A stretch of DNA of 27,888 nt, taken from a virus. Under the pieces are notes generated by a model that was not told where the DNA came from, searched no databases, and saw only the letters and a program-made list of their open reading frames with translations. A program made the translations under genes and the position numbers. Below are positions 2,490-21,586 of this stretch, one piece after another; position 1 is the first letter of the stretch; each line of letters begins with the position of its first letter. The stretch covers positions 1 through 27,888 of IMG/VR virus record IMGVR_UViG_3300021373_003546. The stretch is one strand, 5' to 3'.

Positions 2490-3143
2490 TTAGGCTGGGG
2501 GGTTGGACATATAAGCCACTAAGAAGTAAGCATCGATAAGGTCATCTAAAGGCTTCGGGATCTTCTTCCCGATTTCCAAACCACTCACAACATTCCACAA
2601 CGGGCTTTTAGCCAAGATGAGGTCTTCCGTCGAATTCTTTTGAAAAGCCTCAAACAACTGAAGCTTATTCATATTACCTTTACCGGCATATTTCTTAATA
2701 GTAGTTGGAGCGACTGTGACCAAGTTTTCGGGCTTTAAGGTCTTTAACATCTTCAATTTGAGAATAGCGGCACCTGCAGCCATGTCTATCATATTATTAG
2801 TTCCCATCTTAGAACCATATGAAGTGCCCTCAAACCCAACTATAAAGCCATCACCAACAAAGGCTTCTTGTAAAATTAGATTAATAATATCATCAGCCAT
2901 TCGATCATATCGTTTGACTTTAGTTAGTTCAGCACTTGAAAATGCCTCAGCTTCTTTACTAAAATCAGGTTGATCAACAAGCGTTACATCTTGGAGAAGT
3001 CCAAGTTCTTCCTGTAGTTTTTGTTCAGCTTTAGTACCTGTTTTAGGTTTTATGTAACTGATGAAATGGTATCGTTTACTCTTATCATTGTAAACACATA
3101 TACCAGGGGAATTTAGGGAAAAGTCTACCGAAACGTAGTTCAT
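2490..3143 (-). CDS. RuvC-like Holliday-junction resolvase / RNase H-fold nuclease
   Basis: This 217-residue protein carries the RuvC-type layout of catalytic acids. Asp7 lies in the first strand (VSVDFSLNSPG), Glu105 in FEGTSYGS, and the C-terminal LDDLIDAYFLV contributes Asp201 and Asp204. Between them, VAPTTIKKYAGKGNMNK (143-159) matches the P-x-x-(V/I)-K-K-x-x-(T/A)-G-x-G-x-x-x-K segment of RuvC enzymes. It would cut branched DNA in the cytoplasm, resolving recombination or packaging intermediates, a job done in T4 by endonuclease VII (gp49). The length exceeds bacterial RuvC (about 170) because of an insertion around residues 35-95. The ATG directly follows the stop of the 122-residue gene (TAAATG), so it is the first DNA-metabolism gene after the virion block. 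The nuclease family is well supported; the substrate is inferred. Confidence 0.75.
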   Translation of the reverse strand: MNYVSVDFSLNSPGICVYNDKSKRYHFISYIKPKTGTKAEQKLQEELGLLQDVTLVDQPDFSKEAEAFSSAELTKVKRYDRMADDIINLILQEAFVGDGFIVGFEGTSYGSKMGTNNMIDMAAGAAILKLKMLKTLKPENLVTVAPTTIKKYAGKGNMNKLQLFEAFQKNSTEDLILAKSPLWNVVSGLEIGKKIPKPLDDLIDAYFLVAYMSNPPA

Positions 3144-3512
3144 TTACATTCTTTTACCAAGACTAGCACCTAATGCAGCGCCAACAAGTCTTGAAGTTAA
3201 CAGATCATAAAAAATACCCTTTTGAATACCGAGAACTCTAGCAATCATCTTACCAACTGATTTACCAAGTGCAAAGCCTGTCAAACCACCTAAGATACTA
3301 CCTAAAAGACCTTCGTTCGTCATCTCTTCATTTAAGCGATCCATATCAAAGGTACCATCTTCATTACCGTACTCAGCAATAAATTGATCGATAGCTTCAT
3401 CTACTTGAGCCTCTAATTCTGGAGTCCATTCAGATTGTAGACCTTCTTTAAGCATACCCATATCCTGATCGGTCACTTTCTCTTCCAATAAGTATTTGTT
3501 AAATGTCTTCAT
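3144..3512 (-). CDS. Small glycine-zipper protein with T4-like capsid-targeting N-terminus
   Basis: This 122-residue protein begins MKTFNKYLLEEK, which closely resembles the capsid-targeting sequence of T4 internal proteins (such as IPIII, MKTYQEFIAE). In T4 this peptide steers proteins into the prohead core and is cut after (L/I)-x-E by the gp21 protease. Here LLE (8-10) and LEE (9-11) fit that consensus, and further sites occur at 21-23, 45-47 and 60-62. The middle is acidic. The C-terminal third is hydrophobic with glycine-zipper spacing (GSILGGLTGFALGKSVGKM at 71-89 and VGAALGASLGK at 110-120), a pattern of helices that pack together or enter membranes. It may be an internal or core protein ejected with DNA. 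A holin-like or assembly role cannot be excluded. The start lies 10 bases after the preceding stop. Confidence 0.6.
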   Translation of the reverse strand: MKTFNKYLLEEKVTDQDMGMLKEGLQSEWTPELEAQVDEAIDQFIAEYGNEDGTFDMDRLNEEMTNEGLLGSILGGLTGFALGKSVGKMIARVLGIQKGIFYDLLTSRLVGAALGASLGKRM

Positions 3513-3522
3513 AATGTATATA

Positions 3523-4074
3523 TCATTCTAATTCTATTCTCAAGTCTAACTTATTATAGTAGAACGTGACTTCAAATGTTGAGAAGTCTGCGACGTTCTC
3601 TGCAAAGTTAAGCGAGAGTTCGTTTATTGAGTTCATAATTGGTTTTTGAAATTCCATGTAGGCAACCGAAGCACCTTCTGCATCTAGAATTCTCAAAGTT
3701 AATGGATCCGTATATGGTCTAGTAGTCGATCTAGCATAATAATACAATAGAGTATCCATCATAATCCAATAGTTAATAAAACCATCGAGTAGTTGCATAG
3801 TTACTGTAAACTGACGCTCAATTGTATTTTGAATAGGCTGAGCTCCTCTGTGGTATCTAATAGATCCATCGTTATCAGCTTGACTAACTGGATCAAAGCT
3901 AATCCCGGGAATATTAATACCTTGAATTGAGTAGTTGACAAAATCAATCGGTTCTGCTAACATAGACCCTGGAACCTTGTCTAAATACTTTTTATATTTA
4001 GTGGCAACTTCTTCTGGAATAAACTTCCTAGGAAATCTAAAGTCAAATGAGTTATTTCTGCTATTTAAGATCAT
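3523..4074 (-). CDS. Tail-tube-family structural protein (tentative)
   Basis: This 183-residue protein has a texture like the T4 tail-tube family (gp19, and the tube initiators gp48 and gp54). An N-terminal basic/aromatic arm (FDFRFPRKFIPEEVATKYKKY) is followed by a strand-rich body with INIPGISF near residue 56, ERQFTVTMQLLDGFINYW (85-102), a domain-central helix, and a closing pair of strands (FSTFEVTFYYNKLDLRIE). The length is close to gp19 (163 residues). Its position far from the baseplate wedge genes is compatible with a second tube-like or tube-capping paralog. The assignment is by fold texture only. It is followed after 10 bases by the 122-residue gene and preceded by the 688-residue gene with a 1-base gap. 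Confidence 0.4.
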   Translation of the reverse strand: MILNSRNNSFDFRFPRKFIPEEVATKYKKYLDKVPGSMLAEPIDFVNYSIQGINIPGISFDPVSQADNDGSIRYHRGAQPIQNTIERQFTVTMQLLDGFINYWIMMDTLLYYYARSTTRPYTDPLTLRILDAEGASVAYMEFQKPIMNSINELSLNFAENVADFSTFEVTFYYNKLDLRIELE

Positions 4075-4075
4075 C

Positions 4076-6142
4076 TTATGCTAGTGTGAATTTTCCAGAA
4101 GTAATGTAAGTTTGATCAATGCCATTATCAAGACTAATATAGAACTTAGTGTTCTGCATGCCTCTAATTTTATTAGCATTAGCTTCATTAATCTTAAATA
4201 GAACTTCACCCTCGCCCATATCAATGTCTTTATTAGAAACGTGATTAAATGTTAATTTATTATCACCTTGTCCAAACGTTAAGATAACTCTTTCTGCATT
4301 TTCAAACGATACAAATTCAATATCACCATCCTTTTGTTTTGCAATCACAAATTTAAAATAAGCTGCAAATGGCGGAATCTTAATAGTCAAATCGTTTTCA
4401 TTTACAAAACCACTTGTTTCTACCTCAACGACATCTTGTGTCATTATGTTTTCATTTCCACTATCGAATGTTACGTTTGCAGTACTTGCTACAATGTTAT
4501 GTCTTTCTAAAAATGCAGGTACATATTTAACACTACGTGGGACTGAGTCAGTAATAAGACTCTTAATTACTTTATTACCACTTAAGTTAGGTAGAATATT
4601 GTAAACTTCAGTCAATTGGTTTGGACTGTTAATCTTTAAGGCCGCTAATTTTTTACCGTACTTTGCAGCTTGATTTACTGTTAAACTGGCTCTCTTAACT
4701 ATTTGAGTATTGTCAGTTTGGTTGTAAATTCTCATAGTTACATCAATTGAGAAATTGACTGCAACGTTAGCATTTCTAATTACTGGTCTATAAATAATAG
4801 GTTCGTTAAAGTCTTCATATTGAGTAAACGTTAATTCACCAGTTTTAACTTCACTTGTACCAATTTGTTCAAAGACTGCAACGTCAAAAATAACAACTAT
4901 ATCATCAGAGCTAGTTTGAATTCTATCTAAAATATAACCTTCAAATGCACCAATAGAATTGTCTTTCTCGCCATAGATCATGAAATAATCACCATCTTGT
5001 GCATCTTCAACAACAACTGTAAAGTCTTGATACTCATCTTCACGTGAAACTGTAAATGAGTTCTCTTCGCCAGTATAGAAGTAATCAAAACCATTTAAAG
5101 TTTCAAGTCTATCGATCAATTTAAAGTTAATACCGTAATTAGCAGAAGGATCTAAATCACTTGAACCTATTGTGCCATCGCCGTAGAATCTATCAGTAAA
5201 CTCTTCATTTTGACCAACTAACGAAGGCACTTTAACTTCAATAAATTTACTCCATAAAGTCTCACCTAAAATAAATGGCTTTGGATTAGAGTACTCATAG
5301 TTACTAGTATTTAAGTAAGCTAATTGAGTTAAGTAGTTTTGGATACCACTAGTTCTACCAGCTGAAATTTCAAACAAGAAACCTTCATAACCTCTTGCAG
5401 CAAAAGAGAATCCACTCTTTAAGTGAAGTCTAACAGTATCATATAAAATATAATTTACATTCTGAGTTGCTTCAGTTTGATAATTAATCAGATCGGCTTC
5501 ATTGCCACCGATCCAATTTGGATGGTTATTAATGTAGTTAAACATTTCATAATAACCTGTAGAATCATAACCTAAAAGAGCATACTTGGTTCTTTCTCCT
5601 GGGACTCTAACACCATGATAACGACCAATTGTTTGGTTAATATCATTACCCGTGTTTTCATCTGGTGAAGCAAATAATGGATTAGCTCTAGTATCAATAA
5701 TAATTTTACCGCCAATTAAACCAGGGTAAGAGTACTCAAGTGTACCGTTTTGACTTGGAATAAATTGACCAATTTGAGTAGCCGCTGAATATGTGTAAAT
5801 GCCCAAAGTTCCACTAATTGCAAATTGACTTGGATCCGCCAACGCACTTAGATCAAACTTATAAGTTTTACCATTTTGTAAAAGTAGTGTTCTTGCTGCG
5901 AAATTTTCAACAGCTAAATAACCTGCAGTCGAAGTAACATCAAAGTTAACAACGTCACTACCTAATTCATTAATTAAATGACGTTGAGAAAATGGATCAC
6001 CATCAACTGTATCTAGAAACTTTACTTCACTACCATTATCATCTACTTCGATTTTATAAGCATCATTATTGCTTTGATCGTGGTAGATAAATTCGAGTAA
6101 AACATCCTCGTCTATCCTAAAAAATCTTGATGATTGTGCCAT
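4076..6142 (-). CDS. Large virion structural protein, unknown
   Basis: This 688-residue protein begins MAQSSRFFRIDEDVLLEFIY, contains no cysteine in the parts checked, and is strand-rich with many aromatic residues, as expected of a baseplate or tail component. An N-terminal region (1-180) looks like a beta sandwich. A central region (about 185-300) is aromatic and Asn-rich. The C-terminal half contains successive segments of about 100 residues that resemble Ig-like or jelly-roll strands. There is no signal peptide, coiled coil or enzyme motif. It lies between the membrane-anchored coiled-coil gene and the tail-tube-like gene, separated by 8 and 1 bases. I do not recognise the family. Structural role is inferred from size, composition and context. 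Confidence 0.55.
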   Translation of the reverse strand: MAQSSRFFRIDEDVLLEFIYHDQSNNDAYKIEVDDNGSEVKFLDTVDGDPFSQRHLINELGSDVVNFDVTSTAGYLAVENFAARTLLLQNGKTYKFDLSALADPSQFAISGTLGIYTYSAATQIGQFIPSQNGTLEYSYPGLIGGKIIIDTRANPLFASPDENTGNDINQTIGRYHGVRVPGERTKYALLGYDSTGYYEMFNYINNHPNWIGGNEADLINYQTEATQNVNYILYDTVRLHLKSGFSFAARGYEGFLFEISAGRTSGIQNYLTQLAYLNTSNYEYSNPKPFILGETLWSKFIEVKVPSLVGQNEEFTDRFYGDGTIGSSDLDPSANYGINFKLIDRLETLNGFDYFYTGEENSFTVSREDEYQDFTVVVEDAQDGDYFMIYGEKDNSIGAFEGYILDRIQTSSDDIVVIFDVAVFEQIGTSEVKTGELTFTQYEDFNEPIIYRPVIRNANVAVNFSIDVTMRIYNQTDNTQIVKRASLTVNQAAKYGKKLAALKINSPNQLTEVYNILPNLSGNKVIKSLITDSVPRSVKYVPAFLERHNIVASTANVTFDSGNENIMTQDVVEVETSGFVNENDLTIKIPPFAAYFKFVIAKQKDGDIEFVSFENAERVILTFGQGDNKLTFNHVSNKDIDMGEGEVLFKINEANANKIRGMQNTKFYISLDNGIDQTYITSGKFTLA

Positions 6143-6150
6143 ATTAGTAT

Positions 6151-6957
6151 TTAGAATCTCAAGAACTTAGGTGACCAGTAAACTCCTACGCCAATAGAAG
6201 GGCCAGTACTAATTACTTGATTATTGTTTAAGTTTATTCCATAACCTACGCCGATTCCAATAGACCAGCCAGCCTTTTTCTCGTTACGTTGGTTTAATTT
6301 AGTATTTATCAGGTTTATATTCTCTATGTTAGAGATAGTCAAACCTGGATATGAAGTAGACAATTTAAGTCTATTAGCTCCATCAACTTCTTCGATGCCT
6401 GCAACTAATGTAAGCGTTTGATCAATATTAAATTGATTTAGTCCAGTAGTAAATAAGCCATTATCATAGTTAATAATAGAATAGCCAGTTAAATTTCTAG
6501 TGTTACCGTTTCCAAAATCACTAAACTTACTAAAATCTATTCTTGCAGAATTAGAGTCAATTTGAGTTACTTGAGCCGCTGCTAATAAACTATCTTTAAT
6601 TGCAATATCAGCTGAAAGTAAAGCATTTGTTTTTTTTAGATCACTATTAAGATTAAGTACTCTACGATATTTAGTTAATACCTTTTTTTGATCTTCTTTT
6701 AAATTATCAATATCAAACTCGTAACTTCTAATAGTAGCCAACATATCACCGTTATCGTTCTTTAACACTGTGACACTGTCCTTAGATGCTAAATAATTAT
6801 TAAAATTTCTATCAGCATTTTCTTGAGCCAATTTTACATCAGATTTAAGATCTGAAATACGATCACACTGTCTTAAAAACAATAAAACAAAAAGAGCACC
6901 TGCAATAAATACAATTGCGTTCTTACTAAGTTTTATATTTTTAATTTTATCTAACAT
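6151..6957 (-). CDS. Membrane-anchored coiled-coil protein, candidate spanin
   Basis: The preferred start (ATG at 6957) gives 268 residues, follows an A-rich leader and leaves a 19-bp gap to the previous stop. The longest open frame starts at 7017 but overlaps the preceding gene by 41 bases; a middle ATG is at 6984. A short basic segment is followed by one membrane helix (NAIVFIAGALFVLLFL, about 13-28), then a charged coiled coil to about residue 130. A Ser/Asn-rich region follows, and a glycine-rich amphipathic strand pair (GWSIGIGVGYGI and GPSIGVGVYW) closes the protein. This layout is that of inner-membrane spanins (Rz-like) that fuse inner and outer membranes in lysis, here with a C-terminal beta module that could contact the outer membrane. 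Cys31 follows the helix, but FLRQC is not a lipobox. The lysis role is an inference; no endolysin or holin is adjacent. Confidence 0.45.
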   Translation of the reverse strand: MLDKIKNIKLSKNAIVFIAGALFVLLFLRQCDRISDLKSDVKLAQENADRNFNNYLASKDSVTVLKNDNGDMLATIRSYEFDIDNLKEDQKKVLTKYRRVLNLNSDLKKTNALLSADIAIKDSLLAAAQVTQIDSNSARIDFSKFSDFGNGNTRNLTGYSIINYDNGLFTTGLNQFNIDQTLTLVAGIEEVDGANRLKLSTSYPGLTISNIENINLINTKLNQRNEKKAGWSIGIGVGYGINLNNNQVISTGPSIGVGVYWSPKFLRF

Positions 6958-6976
6958 AATCTTTAATTTTAAATTA

Positions 6977-7699
6977 TTATCCATCAAGGAGGTCTCTAAC
7001 ATCGCCCCCGCCGTCATCTACACCGCCACCTGATAATGTAGCTACTACAAAGAAAGAATCTGTTTGTCCAGCCCATGTAACAATAACTTCTTGTGTAAGA
7101 GTTGATATAGGGCTTGTCATTTGCCAAACATCAATAGTTCCTGTCCATGTTGTCATGCCAGTTTCCATATTAGTTATACCCGCTGTTGGGTTATTAACTT
7201 GCCATCCACCAGGATTAATTAAACTAGGAGCAGTAGTAACAGATGGGGGAACTGGGCTCACACCTGATACAAGAATTTGATATGTTACAGTTGCTGGGCT
7301 AGATGATGAAGTACCAAAAATCTCAACAGCAGTTAGATTTGTTGTATTACTAGTCATCGTAAATGTACTATTTGATGTAGTTGGAGTCGGCGTTGGAGGA
7401 ACTGGAGTTGCAGTTGCCGTTGGAGGAACTGGAGTTGCAGTTGGAGGAACTGGCGTGGCAGTTGGATTTACTGTAGCACCAGCTTGACTCACACTAATAG
7501 AATCTGTTGTTGTACCATCCTCATGTGTCACTGTTAGAGTTGCACTTCTAGCTCCACCTGTATTATCTGCAATTTCAATATTCCAACTATCAGAAGTACC
7601 TTGTTGTGTAATAGTGATCCAACTAGAAGCCGGATTATTCCACGTGTATAAGGCACCTTCTGGTGATGTTGTTATTGTTCTTGTATATGTATAAGCCAT
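6977..7699 (-). CDS. Virion adhesin with BACON-like domain and Pro/Thr linker
   Basis: This 240-residue protein has two beta domains joined by a linker. Residues about 12-75 match the BACON pattern: a W-x-x-I strand (SSWITITQQG), an N-x-x-x-x-R-x-A-x-L-x-V strand (NTGGARSATLTVTH) and the terminal SISVSQAG. BACON domains are typical of Bacteroidota surface proteins and of tail proteins of gut phages, and are thought to bind carbohydrate or mucin. A Pro/Thr/Ala/Val-rich linker (about 80-108) contains repeated PVPPTAT. The C-terminal domain (about 110-225) is an unrecognised beta sandwich ending in a glycine/aspartate-rich tail. It lies 20 bases after the collagen-like fibre gene, which shares the linker repeat, so the two probably form the adsorption apparatus. 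The start is preceded by an AT-rich leader without Shine-Dalgarno. Confidence 0.7.
   Translation of the reverse strand: MAYTYTRTITTSPEGALYTWNNPASSWITITQQGTSDSWNIEIADNTGGARSATLTVTHEDGTTTDSISVSQAGATVNPTATPVPPTATPVPPTATATPVPPTPTPTTSNSTFTMTSNTTNLTAVEIFGTSSSSPATVTYQILVSGVSPVPPSVTTAPSLINPGGWQVNNPTAGITNMETGMTTWTGTIDVWQMTSPISTLTQEVIVTWAGQTDSFFVVATLSGGGVDDGGGDVRDLLDG
7392..7460 (-). repeat. Short direct repeats encoding PVPPTAT linker
   Basis: Three copies of a 21-base unit (plus-strand gttggaggaactggagttgc followed by a) start at 7392, 7419 and 7440; the third has two changes. They encode the Pro/Thr linker of the BACON protein. An 18-base core is identical to copies in the fibre gene at 8724. Confidence 0.85.
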
Positions 7700-7720
7700 T
7701 TTAGTTTTCTATTATAATTT

Positions 7721-9652
7721 TTATCCTCCCCTTGGGCCGTCAGTTTGTCCTTGTGTTAAAGTTCCATTTATAGATAATGTAACATTTGTATCATCTGAGT
7801 GTCTAATAACTAAAGGATCTAGCGTTATACCAACTGGAAACTCAGCCCCAGAGTCTAGGCTTTGGATAATCATAGAACCAACATGTGCTCCTCCTATAAA
7901 CGTACCGTATGTAAAAGAAACGCTAATAAGATTATCTTTTGATACTAAAACTGGCACTGGTTGAGAAGCTCCAAACGAACCAGTCATTCTCCACGCAATA
8001 CTAGTTGTGCCTGTTCCTGGGCCGTTTTCAAAATCACTTACATTATAGCTAGTTTCTCCATTTTGAAATTCAATTGTATTACTTGTTGCAACGACACAAT
8101 CACTAATGCCCATAATTTCATCTTCCATAAATGCAAATACCTTTCCTACTTGCGATGATGCGCTACCAGTAGCTGCAGTAACAACTCTTGAAGTTTGACC
8201 AGGTCCAGCACCGCTAATAGAATCACCCACTACAAATGTACCATCATCTACATATGTGTATGTGTTCGAAGTTGTTGCATCACATGATGTGTTACCTGTC
8301 GGACCAAAAGAAATAGTAGCAGAATTATCTTCAGCTTCAGTATTGATTTCAAACGTTACATCTATTGTTGAATTCTGTGAACCTGTTATCAAATCAAATG
8401 TAATTGTACCTGTGTTAGCCGTAAAATTAGTCTCAGAAACTTCGTTTACACCAGATGTAGTAGAGAATATTTCAGCATAACTAGTTGTACCATTAGTGTA
8501 TATAAAATCTCGACCCGGAACTGTAGCAACGTTTACAGTAATTCTAACACTTGCATTTTGATCAGATTCAAATGAACCTCCACTTGTGCCTAACCCAAAA
8601 CCATTTACAGATACACTAGGATCTGAATTATTCCCATCAACGTTGACCGAAATAATATTCCAATTTGATCCAGAGTTTCCTTCTAATAAATTTAATGTTG
8701 TAGTTACTGAACCTGGTGTTGGTGTTGGAGGAACTGGAGTTGGAGGAACTGGAGTAGGCGTTACACCTGTGTTAGGTGATCCATCTGCATTTGCATCAAT
8801 ATCTCCACCACTAATTGTAATAGAGTTTGGAGCCGCAGCGCCACATGGAGCCATACAAAATTCTGTCCAACCACCGTCACTTAAATAACCTTCAAACGTG
8901 TCATTCCCAGAATTATATCTAACCATACCAATTGCAGGTGAAGTTGGATCTGTATCTGAAAGTTTTACGTATCCCTTAAACTCAGCATTTGCATCTATAT
9001 CAACAATACCAGTATTAGCTTGTAATTTAATGTTAGTAGCACCTGTAGAAATTAGATTGATTCCAGCTGCCGTGATTGTAGTTGTAGAAGTAGAATCTAA
9101 GTCAATTTTATTAGTGTTAATCGCAACCTCAATATTGTTTTGTCCAAAATCATTTTGAATGGCAAATCTAGTAAACTGCGAAACCGTATCATATCCACTG
9201 GTGATAACTAATTTAGCGGCTGCGGTATCATCATCTACTAGCATTATATAGTTATCAAATGTACCTGTGTGTTTTTTAACGGTAATCTTAGAGTTTAAAT
9301 TAAGTTCACCGTTTGCAGCGCTAGTTTCATCAAAGGCTTCATCACCTACATAAATAATTGGCGTTGAAGAGAGTCCTAATCTTTTAGGCTTTAAAAGTTT
9401 ATAAGTAGTTTGATCAATACTGTGCCATGGCCCTGAATCACCGGCGTCACCCTTAGCACCGACAGCGCCTTCGTCACCTTTTTCACCTTTTTGACCAGTT
9501 AAACCGACGTTTCCCTGTAAACCTTTTTCACCCTTCTGGCCAGCAGGGCCACCGCCGTTTGCTAGAATCTGATCAAAATTATAGTTAATCTTCTCAAACT
9601 TAATAGCGTCAGAATCGCTAGGGTGTAATATTTCTTGAATATTGATTGCCAT
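7721..9652 (-). CDS. Collagen-like tail fibre / receptor-binding protein
   Basis: This 643-residue fibre has a mosaic layout. Residues 1-32 form a short helical head with IQEIL (5-9) and INYNF (22-26), shared with the 190-residue protein and probably the attachment point to the virion. Residues 35-74 are about 13 collagen-type Gly-x-y triplets (GPAGQKGEKG onward), which would form a trimeric stalk. A strand-rich shaft follows (about 80-230). A fibre-tip motif, IGMVRYNSGNDTFEGYLSDG (241-260) with GGWTEF after it, resembles the knob module of many tail fibres. A linker TPTPVPPTPVPPTPTP (298-313) leads to a large Ser/Thr/Asn-rich beta region to the C-terminus, probably the receptor-contacting part. 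One base separates it from the stop of the giant gene. A promoter-like box lies 55 bases upstream, within that gene. Confidence 0.75.
   Translation of the reverse strand: MAINIQEILHPSDSDAIKFEKINYNFDQILANGGGPAGQKGEKGLQGNVGLTGQKGEKGDEGAVGAKGDAGDSGPWHSIDQTTYKLLKPKRLGLSSTPIIYVGDEAFDETSAANGELNLNSKITVKKHTGTFDNYIMLVDDDTAAAKLVITSGYDTVSQFTRFAIQNDFGQNNIEVAINTNKIDLDSTSTTTITAAGINLISTGATNIKLQANTGIVDIDANAEFKGYVKLSDTDPTSPAIGMVRYNSGNDTFEGYLSDGGWTEFCMAPCGAAAPNSITISGGDIDANADGSPNTGVTPTPVPPTPVPPTPTPGSVTTTLNLLEGNSGSNWNIISVNVDGNNSDPSVSVNGFGLGTSGGSFESDQNASVRITVNVATVPGRDFIYTNGTTSYAEIFSTTSGVNEVSETNFTANTGTITFDLITGSQNSTIDVTFEINTEAEDNSATISFGPTGNTSCDATTSNTYTYVDDGTFVVGDSISGAGPGQTSRVVTAATGSASSQVGKVFAFMEDEIMGISDCVVATSNTIEFQNGETSYNVSDFENGPGTGTTSIAWRMTGSFGASQPVPVLVSKDNLISVSFTYGTFIGGAHVGSMIIQSLDSGAEFPVGITLDPLVIRHSDDTNVTLSINGTLTQGQTDGPRGG
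8724..8753 (-). repeat. Tandem 15-base repeat encoding PVPPT linker
   Basis: Two exact tandem copies of plus-strand gttggaggaactgga (8724-8738 and 8739-8753) encode PVPPT units of the fibre linker. The first copy plus three bases is identical to the repeat core in the neighbouring BACON gene. Confidence 0.85.
9431..9550 (-). other. Collagen-like Gly-x-y segment of the fibre gene
   Basis: This stretch encodes about 13 uninterrupted Gly-x-y triplets with many Lys-Gly-Glu and Lys-Gly-Asp units, favourable for a short triple helix that trimerises a phage fibre. GQKGEKG occurs twice. Confidence 0.9.
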
Positions 9653-17797: not shown

Positions 17798-20700
17798 TTA
17801 GCGCGATTCGAACTGGAACAGTCTAGGCTTAGTTGCAAGTGACGTAGATGTTGGCACGTTTCTAACTAATTGGGCAGCTCTAATAGAATTTAAGTTTTTA
17901 CCCTTAGGACTGTACTTAGCAAACACTTCTAGATCAAACGAGAATTGAGTATCATATTTGTCAAAAATATCTAGACCGATTTTCTTAGTATAAGTTAAGT
18001 TAGGGAAACTTAATTTTGCTTGACCACCAATTCTACCAATATCTGAAGATGGATCATTACCAAAATAATCAGTCATTCTATATTGGAATACAACGTCAAG
18101 TGATAAAGCATTTGAGTTACCTAATGTTGAGTTGTCTCTACCTTTAACTTGCTTTCTTGATTGCTTAGTTTCACCATCAACTGAAAGAGTTGCTAAGTTA
18201 ATTGGAGATAAGTATAAAAAGGCTCCACATGATCTACCACCTAATAAGTATTGATCATTTGCATCAAAACTCATTTTAAACGAACGAGCACCTGCTGCAA
18301 TTAAATCAGTGTATTGATATGCCAGTTGTTGTTTCGATTTAACAGGATCTGCATCGACAGCAGATGAACCAAAGACTGCAGCGCTTGCAGTTTTAAACGA
18401 AGTACCAGTAACTAGCGTTGCTGTAATCGGCATGCTGTAACCAGCATTGTTGATTAGTGCTTGTAAGCTTGTTTGTTGTTCAGAATCTGTAACAGCCGCT
18501 GGGTTTGAAACCGTACTATTACCATCTTCATCCGTGGTCCAACCAGCATAAATGTTTTCTAAATCTGGGTGATCTTTATGGAAATACAATCCACTGTTAT
18601 AGTTTGCAGCACCAATTGTACTAATAGAACATACATCAATCATAGAAGCATCAAATCTTTGAGTAAGATCTGGTGTAATCCAGCTTGTTACGTTTTGGTT
18701 CTTACCAAAAGTACCTGTCCAAATAAAATCACTAGAGTTTCCATCTCCACTTCCTTGAATTAATGATATATTACCAGCCGTACCTTCAAATGTAGCATAA
18801 CTTAATGTGTATTCATAACTATTAAGAGTTGCCGTACCTGCAGTTAATGGTGAAGTAATATAGTGTGGATTTTGATTAGCAATGTCCATATATCTTGAGT
18901 AGACAAATTGCCCACGTCTTTGAGCAGATTGATATGGTGCATCTTCTAATAAATCATATGTTGAAATTTCAGTAGATGAAATGTTTTGGAACTGAATTGG
19001 TGCCAAATCATATTTACCTTCTGTTGTGTAGTAAGTATCAGACTCAACTTTAGTATCAATTGAAGTAGTACCTTGATCATTGGTTAATGTACCAAAGCCA
19101 TTTGTTGTAATAGTTGAAGCCGCATTTGAAGACTTATATGCTGGTTTGTTTCTGTCACCAGTCAATCTAGATACAAGTTCAAGTTGAGTTGCTTTAGTGT
19201 TTTCTAAAAGTAGTTTAAATGTCTTAGTAACAATGTGACCTTTTTTAACTGAAAGTTCAGCCACCTCGTCAACATAGTAACCAGCGAAAATTTGATTAAC
19301 TGTGTTATTCTTAATAATCGTTACCGTACCGTCTTCTGCTTGAAGCTTAACTACCAATTCACCAACTTCAGCTTCGATACCTTCTTTAAGTGCTCTAATC
19401 TGATTTTCAAGTTCAGTTAATTTGTCAAAGACAGAAACTGGTTTTTGTTCTGGTGAAAGAAAGCCCGATGCAATGTTAGTCGCAGTGTGAGCATAATATG
19501 TTTCGTTAGCTGTAAAGCTTTCATCAACGTGAGTATAAACACCTTTAGCTGTCAATTCGTCTGAAATTCTAACAGCTGCAACTTCAGCTAAGTTTTTATC
19601 TACTAAATTGTCAAGATCTGTTGTATCGATTTCAGCTTCTGGGAAATCAACCGTGATTGGCTCTGACCAGTCACTAAAGATTGGGTTTGCAGGATAACCA
19701 GCTTCTGAAACTGACTTAACTCTAATTTCAACTAGTTCACCTTCATTAATAGCAATATCTAATTGGTTAAAGTTGATCTCTTGACCATCTTCAACTAAAC
19801 TCTCTTTCCACTCAAATTTACCAGTGTCAGTATTTCTTGCACGATCTCTAACCTTGGTTCTAATCTCATTCCAATTTGAGAAGACCGCAGTCTTTTCTCT
19901 AGTGCCATCTGTAAATGGTAGTTGAGCAACTTCACCTGCCTTACCGCTCGTCGATAGGTATCTATATTGAATAGCAAATTGAACTACTTGTTGATCAGTA
20001 GTGTCTGCAACTTTCTTTGGAGATGGAACAGCCCAAAAACCCCTAACGCGATACTTAGGTGCAATATTAGTAATATTTGTGCCCGAAGCCAAAGATTGAA
20101 TCTGATTTACAAGTGAGTTGTAGAGTTTAGTTTCACTAGCTCTTTCCTCGATAAGTGCATTTAATTCACTCTTATCCTTGTCTTTTTGAATGTCAGACTC
20201 ATATTTCTTAGTAGAGATTTCAGTTCTCTTCTTAGCTATTGTATCGTCAAGCTTCTTAATTGTTTCTTCAACTGTCGTCTTATCTGCTGAAAGCTTTTTA
20301 ATTTTATCAGCAGTATCATTTTGTGTTAAGTGTGAGTTGATCTGAACCACCTTAAAGTTTGAAGCTTCAAGTGTTGGAGCATCTGGAGTTACACCAACCG
20401 TAGCCGGTGGAATAGCATCCTCTTTTAATGCTTTAATATATTGACCGAAATCAGCAACGTTGTCCTTGTAATAGTCATCTAATCTAATCTCTGAACCATC
20501 TTCTTGAAGAAGGATCATTTCGTTAGTATAGAAGCCAATACCAGGTGACCAATTTTCTGCTAACATGCCAGAATCTGAGTCAATCGCCTTAACAAATAAG
20601 AGGACTCTCTCGTTAAACCCTAAACTAATTTCAATGTTTAACGCAGTTGTGTTATATTTATAAATCGATAGTACGTCAGTACCAATCTTAATAGGATCGT

Positions 20701-21586
20701 AACCTTCTACTAATTGAACTTCAATTTGACGAGTTGAACCATCAATTTTAGAAATCTTATATCTAGTGTTTCTGTTGCCAGAGTTAACCATTAACTCATC
20801 ACCAACTTTTAACAATTCTGTTTGATCAAGATCTTTATCGTTATCAGAGTAAGTTAGTTTGTCAAGCGTGATTAACTTAACTGATCTTTTAACAGTTGTG
20901 CCTTCAACGATAACATCTTTTTTGGCCGAATCAATTGACAATACATCAAACTTACCAATATATTGATTAACTCTATACGGTAGATCTCTAACTTCTTCAT
21001 CAACGATATACGTTAAGTTATTGTTAGCAATGTCTCTAAGTGCTGTGTAGTAATCAATACCTTCTTGGTTCTTATAGTTTTCCTTAAAGAACTCAACTGA
21101 TGGCACATTAGTAGAATCGAAAATAATTCTTTTAACTAAAACTCTTTCAGTGTCATTTGGAATTTGACCAGTAACGTTTAAAGTTGTAGTTAAAAGAGGG
21201 TTTAAAAAATCTTCAAAGAAATAGTTGCTCTTAGTAGTAAATGAAGATGGTCTGATTAGAGACGAAATATCATTTGCTGGAGCTTTTAATCTTGAAGTAA
21301 CAATATTTTGATATGTGCCATCTGGCAATTTAATCTTAGTATTACCTTTACCCAATCCTGTTAAAGCCTTAAGATTAGTGTCTAATCTTTCTAGCTCTCG
21401 CTTCATAAACCCAAAAGAAGGCACATATACGGTCTTAGTTGTACCCTCATCAGTAATGACTTCTAATGGTACATCTTTTAAATCCGTAGTAATAGCTTCA
21501 TTAATTCTCTCATAAATTTTTAATGAGTTAGAGTTAATTTCAAGAAGCTTCTTGAGCGAATTAGAAATTGAGTTATTAGTATTCAT
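17798..21586 (-). CDS. Large coiled-coil virion structural protein, unknown
   Basis: This 1262-residue protein has a helical N-terminus (1-80), beta-rich regions, a strongly charged coiled coil at about 425-498 (KIKKLSADKTTVEETIKKLD onward), and a fibronectin-III-like segment at about 505-650 with the end pattern VEIRVKSVSEAGYP then FSDWSEPI. A second short coiled coil lies at about 717-742. The C-terminal 500 residues are Ser/Thr/Asn-rich and beta-like. The layout suggests an elongated trimeric or dimeric baseplate or fibre component. It starts two bases after the stop of the 645-residue gene and is followed by the promoter-bearing gap. No specific T4 counterpart could be recognised; a gp10-like or other wedge-peripheral role is possible but unsupported. 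Confidence 0.55.
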   Translation of the reverse strand: MNTNNSISNSLKKLLEINSNSLKIYERINEAITTDLKDVPLEVITDEGTTKTVYVPSFGFMKRELERLDTNLKALTGLGKGNTKIKLPDGTYQNIVTSRLKAPANDISSLIRPSSFTTKSNYFFEDFLNPLLTTTLNVTGQIPNDTERVLVKRIIFDSTNVPSVEFFKENYKNQEGIDYYTALRDIANNNLTYIVDEEVRDLPYRVNQYIGKFDVLSIDSAKKDVIVEGTTVKRSVKLITLDKLTYSDNDKDLDQTELLKVGDELMVNSGNRNTRYKISKIDGSTRQIEVQLVEGYDPIKIGTDVLSIYKYNTTALNIEISLGFNERVLLFVKAIDSDSGMLAENWSPGIGFYTNEMILLQEDGSEIRLDDYYKDNVADFGQYIKALKEDAIPPATVGVTPDAPTLEASNFKVVQINSHLTQNDTADKIKKLSADKTTVEETIKKLDDTIAKKRTEISTKKYESDIQKDKDKSELNALIEERASETKLYNSLVNQIQSLASGTNITNIAPKYRVRGFWAVPSPKKVADTTDQQVVQFAIQYRYLSTSGKAGEVAQLPFTDGTREKTAVFSNWNEIRTKVRDRARNTDTGKFEWKESLVEDGQEINFNQLDIAINEGELVEIRVKSVSEAGYPANPIFSDWSEPITVDFPEAEIDTTDLDNLVDKNLAEVAAVRISDELTAKGVYTHVDESFTANETYYAHTATNIASGFLSPEQKPVSVFDKLTELENQIRALKEGIEAEVGELVVKLQAEDGTVTIIKNNTVNQIFAGYYVDEVAELSVKKGHIVTKTFKLLLENTKATQLELVSRLTGDRNKPAYKSSNAASTITTNGFGTLTNDQGTTSIDTKVESDTYYTTEGKYDLAPIQFQNISSTEISTYDLLEDAPYQSAQRRGQFVYSRYMDIANQNPHYITSPLTAGTATLNSYEYTLSYATFEGTAGNISLIQGSGDGNSSDFIWTGTFGKNQNVTSWITPDLTQRFDASMIDVCSISTIGAANYNSGLYFHKDHPDLENIYAGWTTDEDGNSTVSNPAAVTDSEQQTSLQALINNAGYSMPITATLVTGTSFKTASAAVFGSSAVDADPVKSKQQLAYQYTDLIAAGARSFKMSFDANDQYLLGGRSCGAFLYLSPINLATLSVDGETKQSRKQVKGRDNSTLGNSNALSLDVVFQYRMTDYFGNDPSSDIGRIGGQAKLSFPNLTYTKKIGLDIFDKYDTQFSFDLEVFAKYSPKGKNLNSIRAAQLVRNVPTSTSLATKPRLFQFESR

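Follow-up and report, generated by a model that had tools for sequence, protein, structure and literature searches.

A conserved phage protein joining a T4-like capsid-targeting tag to a glycine-zipper peptide, and its candidate processing sites

What would a phage do with a small protein that begins like an internal head protein of T4 and ends in a glycine zipper? We know of no such combination of capsid tag and glycine zipper from T4, and the question arises here from a stretch of viral DNA of 27,888 bases, a whole IMG/VR virus record, which we call the window. Its genes, nearly all on the minus strand, mark it as late/tail region of a large phage of the T4 type, and its products include primase-like, gp32-like SSB, RuvC-like and tail-tube-like proteins in addition to those of the large tail genes. 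The gene in question is an open reading frame that lies exactly at 3144-3512 (minus strand), as an earlier sequence-only reading had it; its product of 122 amino acids, here called the zipper protein, has the N-terminus MKTFNKYLLEEK. The features discussed below are collected in table 1.

Table 1. Features of the zipper gene and its surroundings (window coordinates; a slash within a sequence marks a candidate cut)
Feature	Coordinates	Strand	Basis
Zipper gene, 122-aa pre-protein (acidic propeptide and glycine-zipper peptide)	3144..3512	-	ORF, viral relatives, dN/dS
Capsid-targeting-like tag, residues 1-10 (MKTFNKYLLE)	3483..3512	-	Conservation in 62 homologs; T4 IPIII determinants
Rest of acidic propeptide, residues 11-67	3312..3482	-	Net charge -14 over residues 1-67; replaced by unrelated sequence in L145/L146
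Candidate cleavage site L21-K22-E23/G24	3441..3452	-	[LIV]21 and E23 62/62, G24 53/62
Main candidate cleavage site T65-N66-E67/G68	3309..3320	-	E67 and G68 62/62 in close homologs, also invariant in divergent alignment
Predicted mature 55-aa glycine-zipper peptide, residues 68-122	3147..3311	-	Charge +6, GRAVY 0.80, AF2 helices, weak Gly-zipper_Omp match
Candidate late promoter (GATATATA element) just before the start codon	3517..3524	-	Upstream in most relatives and before other window genes
Probable tail tube protein, upstream neighbour	3523..4074	-	phrog_45, E 8e-6; same place in most relatives
RuvC-like resolvase, downstream neighbour, directly abutting	2490..3143	-	phrog_159, E 9.4e-15; abuts or overlaps the zipper gene in all relatives listed

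The gene, its relatives and its neighbours

Relatives of the zipper protein are numerous among the viral contigs of IMG/VR (254 with a single-sequence query, 578 loci with a profile), and a scan of 84,980 cellular genomes returned no cellular copy; the family is virus-only, its carriers being hundreds of marine relatives of giant phages. Every searched record that has the gene has one copy of it. The open reading frame is under purifying selection, the median dN/dS being 0.16 in the first part (residues 1-67) and 0.11 in the second (residues 68-122). Farther away, the 462-kb phage LR756500.1 encodes a homolog 46% identical to the zipper protein of the window, and the 540-kb Lak phages encode a homolog of its C-terminal part. 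The family profile (A2) found no match in T4, Sphingomonas phage PAU, Tenacibaculum phages PTm1 and pT24 or three phages of 630-735 kb; searches of PHROGs and Pfam with the zipper protein gave nothing over the cut-off, and a PDB sequence search gave chance matches only. Recoding of TAG to glutamine has been reported for the Lak phages, and the Lak-type zipper gene (L147 / G013 176939-177274) has an in-frame TAG codon that fits such recoding.

The flanks of the gene are fixed among its relatives, usually a tail-tube-like gene upstream and an abutting RuvC-like gene downstream, so that in most of them it adjoins tail tube and RuvC genes and lies outside the head operon. The same flanking genes are found in LR756500, except for one inserted gene, and in contig L145 the zipper gene also follows a tail-tube-like gene; in Lak-C1 some 4 kb separate the homolog from the protease gene, which lies downstream on the same strand. 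The GATATATA element before the start codon has the look of a late promoter belonging to this group of phages. Late promoters of T4 have the sequence TATAAATA. Further minus-strand copies of the window element start at 2375, 9717, 17772 and 24260.

An N-terminal tag like that of the T4 internal proteins

In the sequences compared, T4 IPI begins MKTFKEF, and IPII and IPIII begin MKTYQEFIAEA. Experiments with IPIII have attributed targeting mainly to residues 4 and 7 and processing to residues 8 and 10 (PMC9026906). The 62 distinct homologs of the zipper protein that we aligned all have K2, T3, F4 and E10, and 61 of them have Y7 and 61 have L8. The likeness to a T4 internal protein that had been noticed in the window holds in these homologs, the conserved positions being the very IPIII determinants: an aromatic residue at 4 (62/62) and 7 (61/62), an aliphatic one at 8 (61/62) and Glu at 10 (62/62). 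Distant homologs in the Lak phages are without the KTF tag. IPI, IPII and IPIII share with the zipper protein the MKT[FY]xx[FY] start, the key positions 4, 7, 8 and 10, Glu-based candidate cuts and a basic mature part, and among known systems its targeting is most like that of a T4 internal protein (PMC9026906, PMC12373910), here judged from the sequence alone. Homology to these proteins was not detected: neither tblastn nor profile A2 gave a T4 match (E up to 1), and we found no likeness outside the tag. Moreover, the cut would most likely come after about 67 residues, as against 10-19 in the T4 internal proteins, the mature part would be a glycine-zipper hairpin rather than a soluble restriction inhibitor, and the gene, unlike those of the T4 proteins, is single-copy and conserved across its phage group.

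A search for further N-termini of this type, which the sequence-only reading had proposed as a check, was productive. Among the predicted proteins of five related contigs, KTFxx[FY][LIVM] occurs in the N-terminus eight times against 0.16 expected, five of the eight being orthologs of the zipper protein. The broader motif [FYL]xx[FYHW][LIVM]xE is found near the N-terminus of 44 proteins against 5.7 expected, a count that excludes the zipper family and the protease fusion described below (in the five contigs the expectations were taken from the remainder of the same proteins). In the 400 kb of LR756500 that were searched it is found in 25 against 3.6, which brings the matches besides the zipper protein to 69 in six related phage sequences. 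The corresponding P values, 2e-24 for the five contigs and 2e-13 for LR756500, are too strong and indicative only, since the calculation ignores relatedness among the proteins and the motif was broadened once the family was known; even so, the excess is large, far above chance. An earlier pattern search had turned up few tags because its motif was too narrow. T4 serves as an independent yardstick for the broadened motif: it has three matches, namely IPII, IPIII and one open reading frame with a doubtful non-ATG start. Tenacibaculum phage PTm1 has five against 1.95 expected. Judged by these motif counts, the tagged proteins form a genome-wide class in these phages, and an S6-modification-like enzyme is among them. 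By sequence alone, the tag allows one to list proteins that may be injected, mostly of no known function, in abundant uncultured phages, both marine and huge.

Directly upstream of the zipper gene lies a hotspot for insertions (L006 1092-1523, L018 from 5037, L009-L011 and L012-L017). Its products are small proteins that begin MKHIKLFEQF, MKHVKLFKQYVNE or MKHLLTLESYY, or a 151-aa protein of the form MA[KE]QKxYTxWGSNPEKG. L006 and the window have identical zipper proteins; the extra gene inserted just upstream in L006 has a related start (MKHIKLFEQFIGSQ...), and L018 and L020 also have a tagged gene near the zipper gene. In L145 the zipper gene is followed (5321-8438) by consecutive small genes, several of which start in a way similar to MKSLxxYLxE (MKSLKYYLVE, MKSLSSYLTE), in some cases followed by [LI]xE/A; from these starts the run is likely a cargo cluster. 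The variable tagged genes near the zipper gene in L006, L018, L020 and L145 are reminiscent of the ip loci of T4.

Protease, scaffold and head genes of the relatives

The sequence-only reading had also called for a gp21-like protease. Such a gene, within a T4-like head operon, is present in related genomes; the window record itself, a 27.9-kb fragment, includes no head genes, and the protease of the window phage is inferred from relatives. Peptidase_S77 scores over its cut-off in 8 of 12 related records, mostly long ones, and in 2 of 40 shorter ones, as is to be expected of records that are fragments; one of the two (G018) encodes a zipper protein 80% identical to that of the window. A gp21-type protease, a T4 feature, is thus found also in genomes related to the window phage. 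The head operon of these relatives runs portal (phrog_213, 1.8e-72), small acidic protein, protease/scaffold fusion (phrog_207, 2e-41, and Peptidase_S77) and major capsid protein (phrog_138, 1.2e-44), an order comparable to T4 genes 20 (portal), 67, 68, 21, 22 and 23. In several contigs a tag of this kind (KTFEDFISE, KLFEQFIKE, NTFESFIKE) is also present on the small acidic protein that occupies the place of gp67/68.

The protease of the relatives is fused to a long scaffold-like tail, and in each fusion the motif [FY]xx[FYHW][LIVM]xE is repeated five to six times, mostly with a 14-residue spacing, as against a mean of 0.07-0.10 in shuffled sequences; no other protein across the five contigs has three or more copies. 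The repeats DFANYLAEAH and EYAEYIAESI may be set beside the TFNKYLLEEK of the zipper protein. From this match we infer that the tag would dock on the core by copying the repeat of the core itself, and shared coiled-coil preferences could be a partial cause of the likeness. To the question of which part of the core recognises the ten-residue tag of T4, the visible recurrence of the tag motif in this scaffold suggests a direct and testable answer.

Candidate cleavage sites and the mature peptide

L-x-E sites, which had been noted earlier in the N-terminus, are present at L8-L9-E10 and L21-K22-E23/G24, and three glutamates in protease-like contexts are invariant: E10 ([LI]xE), E23 (mostly [LIV]xE/G) and E67 (TNE/G or VNE/G). 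The last of these, which had not been picked out earlier, forms the best conserved candidate cut site. In the divergent alignment there are no invariant columns before residue 67, while E67, G68 and 15 later columns are invariant. The corresponding junction is INE/G in LR756500, LNE/G in L145/L146 and VDE/G in the Lak phages, and the homologs in all of these retain little beyond the E/G junction and the zipper; in L145/L146 junction and zipper follow an N-terminal domain of some 160 residues that is unrelated to the propeptide it replaces. The propeptides of T4 end in LTE/A (gp23), LRE/S (gp24) and IAE/A (IPIII), so the P1 Glu is common to both systems; the P3 residue at E67 in close relatives, T in 56 of 62 and V in 6, deviates from the L/I of the T4 sites. 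At E10 the usual P1' residue is N or E instead of A. A mature N-terminus after residue 10 or 11, as first proposed, is probably not the main one: both E67 and E23 are followed by Gly, E67/G68 is the better conserved, and it is E67/G68 that we prefer. Release of the peptide 68-122 seems to us reasonably probable.

The two parts so defined differ in character throughout the family, homologs averaging a net charge of -13.8 in the propeptide and +5.5 (GRAVY 0.85) in the C-terminal part, whose length is 55-60 residues in 43 of 43 homologs measured. A basic mature part, as expected of an internal head protein with a capsid-targeting sequence, is thus found here (+6 for residues 68-122). AF2 predicts two helices in the mature part (2-26 and 33-52, pLDDT 71), the full-length prediction having a low pLDDT of 61, and the peak Kyte-Doolittle hydropathy over 19 residues is 1.25, low for a confident transmembrane helix. 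Weak matches to PF13488 (Gly-zipper_Omp) were obtained with 38 of 38 members scanned, the best at 3.5e-5; for the window protein the score is 17.1 bits against a curated cut-off of 25. The G/A/S-rich helical pattern is common to the zipper protein and the glycine-zipper domains PF13488, PF05433 and PF13441, whereas the TSRLVGAALGASLGK signature and the charge pattern are specific to its family. A zipper-like region had been placed in the C-terminal third of the protein; the region is there, but it spans residues 68-122, nearly half of the chain.

Proposed role and alternatives

We propose that the pre-protein is packed into the prohead of this T4-type large phage, where its MKTFxxYLxE tag would dock on a protease-scaffold core carrying the same helical motif. 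During maturation a gp21-type protease would remove the acidic propeptide by cutting after glutamates, at E23/G24 and above all at E67/G68, and the 55-aa cationic glycine-zipper helical hairpin would stay in the DNA-filled head. It would then exit with the DNA via the tail and help at the host envelope, perhaps by lining or stabilising the passage of DNA through the inner membrane. The proposal starts from direct observations, namely the conserved tag and the class of proteins that share it, the T4-like head operon with its protease in the relatives, the repeat in the scaffold and the E/G junction that the family keeps; docking on the repeat, cleavage, presence in virions, ejection and the membrane role are its hypothetical parts. 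The claim of capsid targeting and gp21-type processing is well supported by comparison (tag positions, Peptidase_S77 in relatives, tagged class), and from these sequences packaging and processing of the zipper protein are quite probable. Action at the host membrane after ejection, argued from analogy and physical properties, is plausible and falls a little short of an even chance. As a whole, the account of a packed, cleaved and ejected zipper peptide is one that we favour slightly. A literature search for a virion proteome of a relative found none in the papers covered.

The best surviving alternative, which we nevertheless consider unlikely, is that the protein is a prohead core accessory of the gp67/gp68 type, whose protease-cut fragments leave the head and whose glycine-rich part serves assembly, for example by contacting the inner membrane or the shell, and not infection. 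In T4, gp67 and gp68 belong to the prohead core and are processed (PMC9958956); like them, the zipper protein has an acidic helical N-terminal half with protease sites (three conserved Glu-based candidates), and its single-copy gene with fixed neighbours is unlike those of the variable T4 internal proteins. On the other hand, the place of gp67/68 between portal and protease is taken by a different small acidic protein, and the zipper is the best conserved half, which argues that what matters is the product after the cut. Identity with gp67/gp68 itself was rejected, given a gene that lies between tail tube and RuvC and not between portal and protease, and a C-terminal half that is a conserved glycine zipper.

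Rather less probable is a small inner-membrane protein of the producing cell, linked through its tag to the prohead core, that anchors head assembly or takes part in lysis or superinfection exclusion. A glycine-zipper hairpin does make up the C-terminal half, and T4 proheads are assembled at the inner membrane (PMC9958956), but a stable membrane anchor would be expected to have a higher peak hydropathy, a lysis protein would not need a conserved E67/G68 junction and a tag, there are no adjacent lysis genes, and the zipper protein matches no holin family. A phage holin was rejected on the same hydropathy value and on its neighbours, tail tube and RuvC. That the protein is instead a component of the lumen or end of the tail tube, co-transcribed with the tail tube gene it follows in most relatives, LR756500 and L145, and only coincidentally tag-like, is very improbable, as the tag positions are invariant and agree with the T4 determinants, many non-tail proteins are also tagged, and the Lak homolog is near the protease gene and not tied to a tail tube gene.

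Returning to the packed and ejected peptide, a fuller version may be put forward tentatively, as possible but doubtful: the tag copies the 14-residue scaffold repeat, so that cargo slots into the core like another repeat; the cargo set is large and variable, and its widely conserved member is a latent membrane-active peptide that the acidic propeptide keeps inactive until capsid maturation frees it for delivery into the host with the DNA. What is known of this cargo class so far mainly concerns anti-restriction and host take-over. If the proposal is true, a zipper peptide activated by maturation would add a membrane function to it.

Related architectures and other observations

Among the papers listed by a literature search on glycine-zipper ejection proteins, none was found to use that term. 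The nearest architecture is that of SPN3US gp47, in which a long propeptide with a Glu cleavage motif is followed by a transmembrane segment, and which has been proposed to be an ejection protein acting at the host membrane (PMC5694885). The plan of the zipper protein, a long predicted propeptide that ends in Glu and then a mature part of possible membrane type, though of modest hydropathy, fits that of gp47; the SPN3US motif is AxE and gp47 is much larger, the zipper tag is T4-like, and the likeness meant here is one of architecture.

Several other proteins of these phages have comparable layouts. In LR756500 the next gene (L082 10380-11231) encodes 283 amino acids with an acidic N-terminal half, LEE/G and a basic glycine-rich part, and has no evident sequence relation to the zipper protein. 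Just after the major capsid gene, G004 7669-8529 (L124) encodes a product with an LFEEF start, an LNE/G junction and a hydrophobic segment, from its sequence a candidate for a second processed membrane-type head protein. The element ENITPANxxGMGPVxLP...GSGDVPAG, common to MPSTSK-type proteins and the L145 zipper propeptide, recurs at G003 46273-47451, G005 73740-74339, G001 119262-120167 and L145 4665-5312. The part of this propeptide that resembles the major capsid protein N-arm is a GMGxVxLP...GSGD element; it is shared with the MPSTSK-type proteins and matches the capsid protein only at a borderline level, and the resemblance was set aside. Finally, a family of 1262-aa tail proteins (window 17798-21586, minus strand) has KTFERINE/A near the N-terminus in relatives and KIYERINEA in the window, and from its sequence this is a possible processing site.
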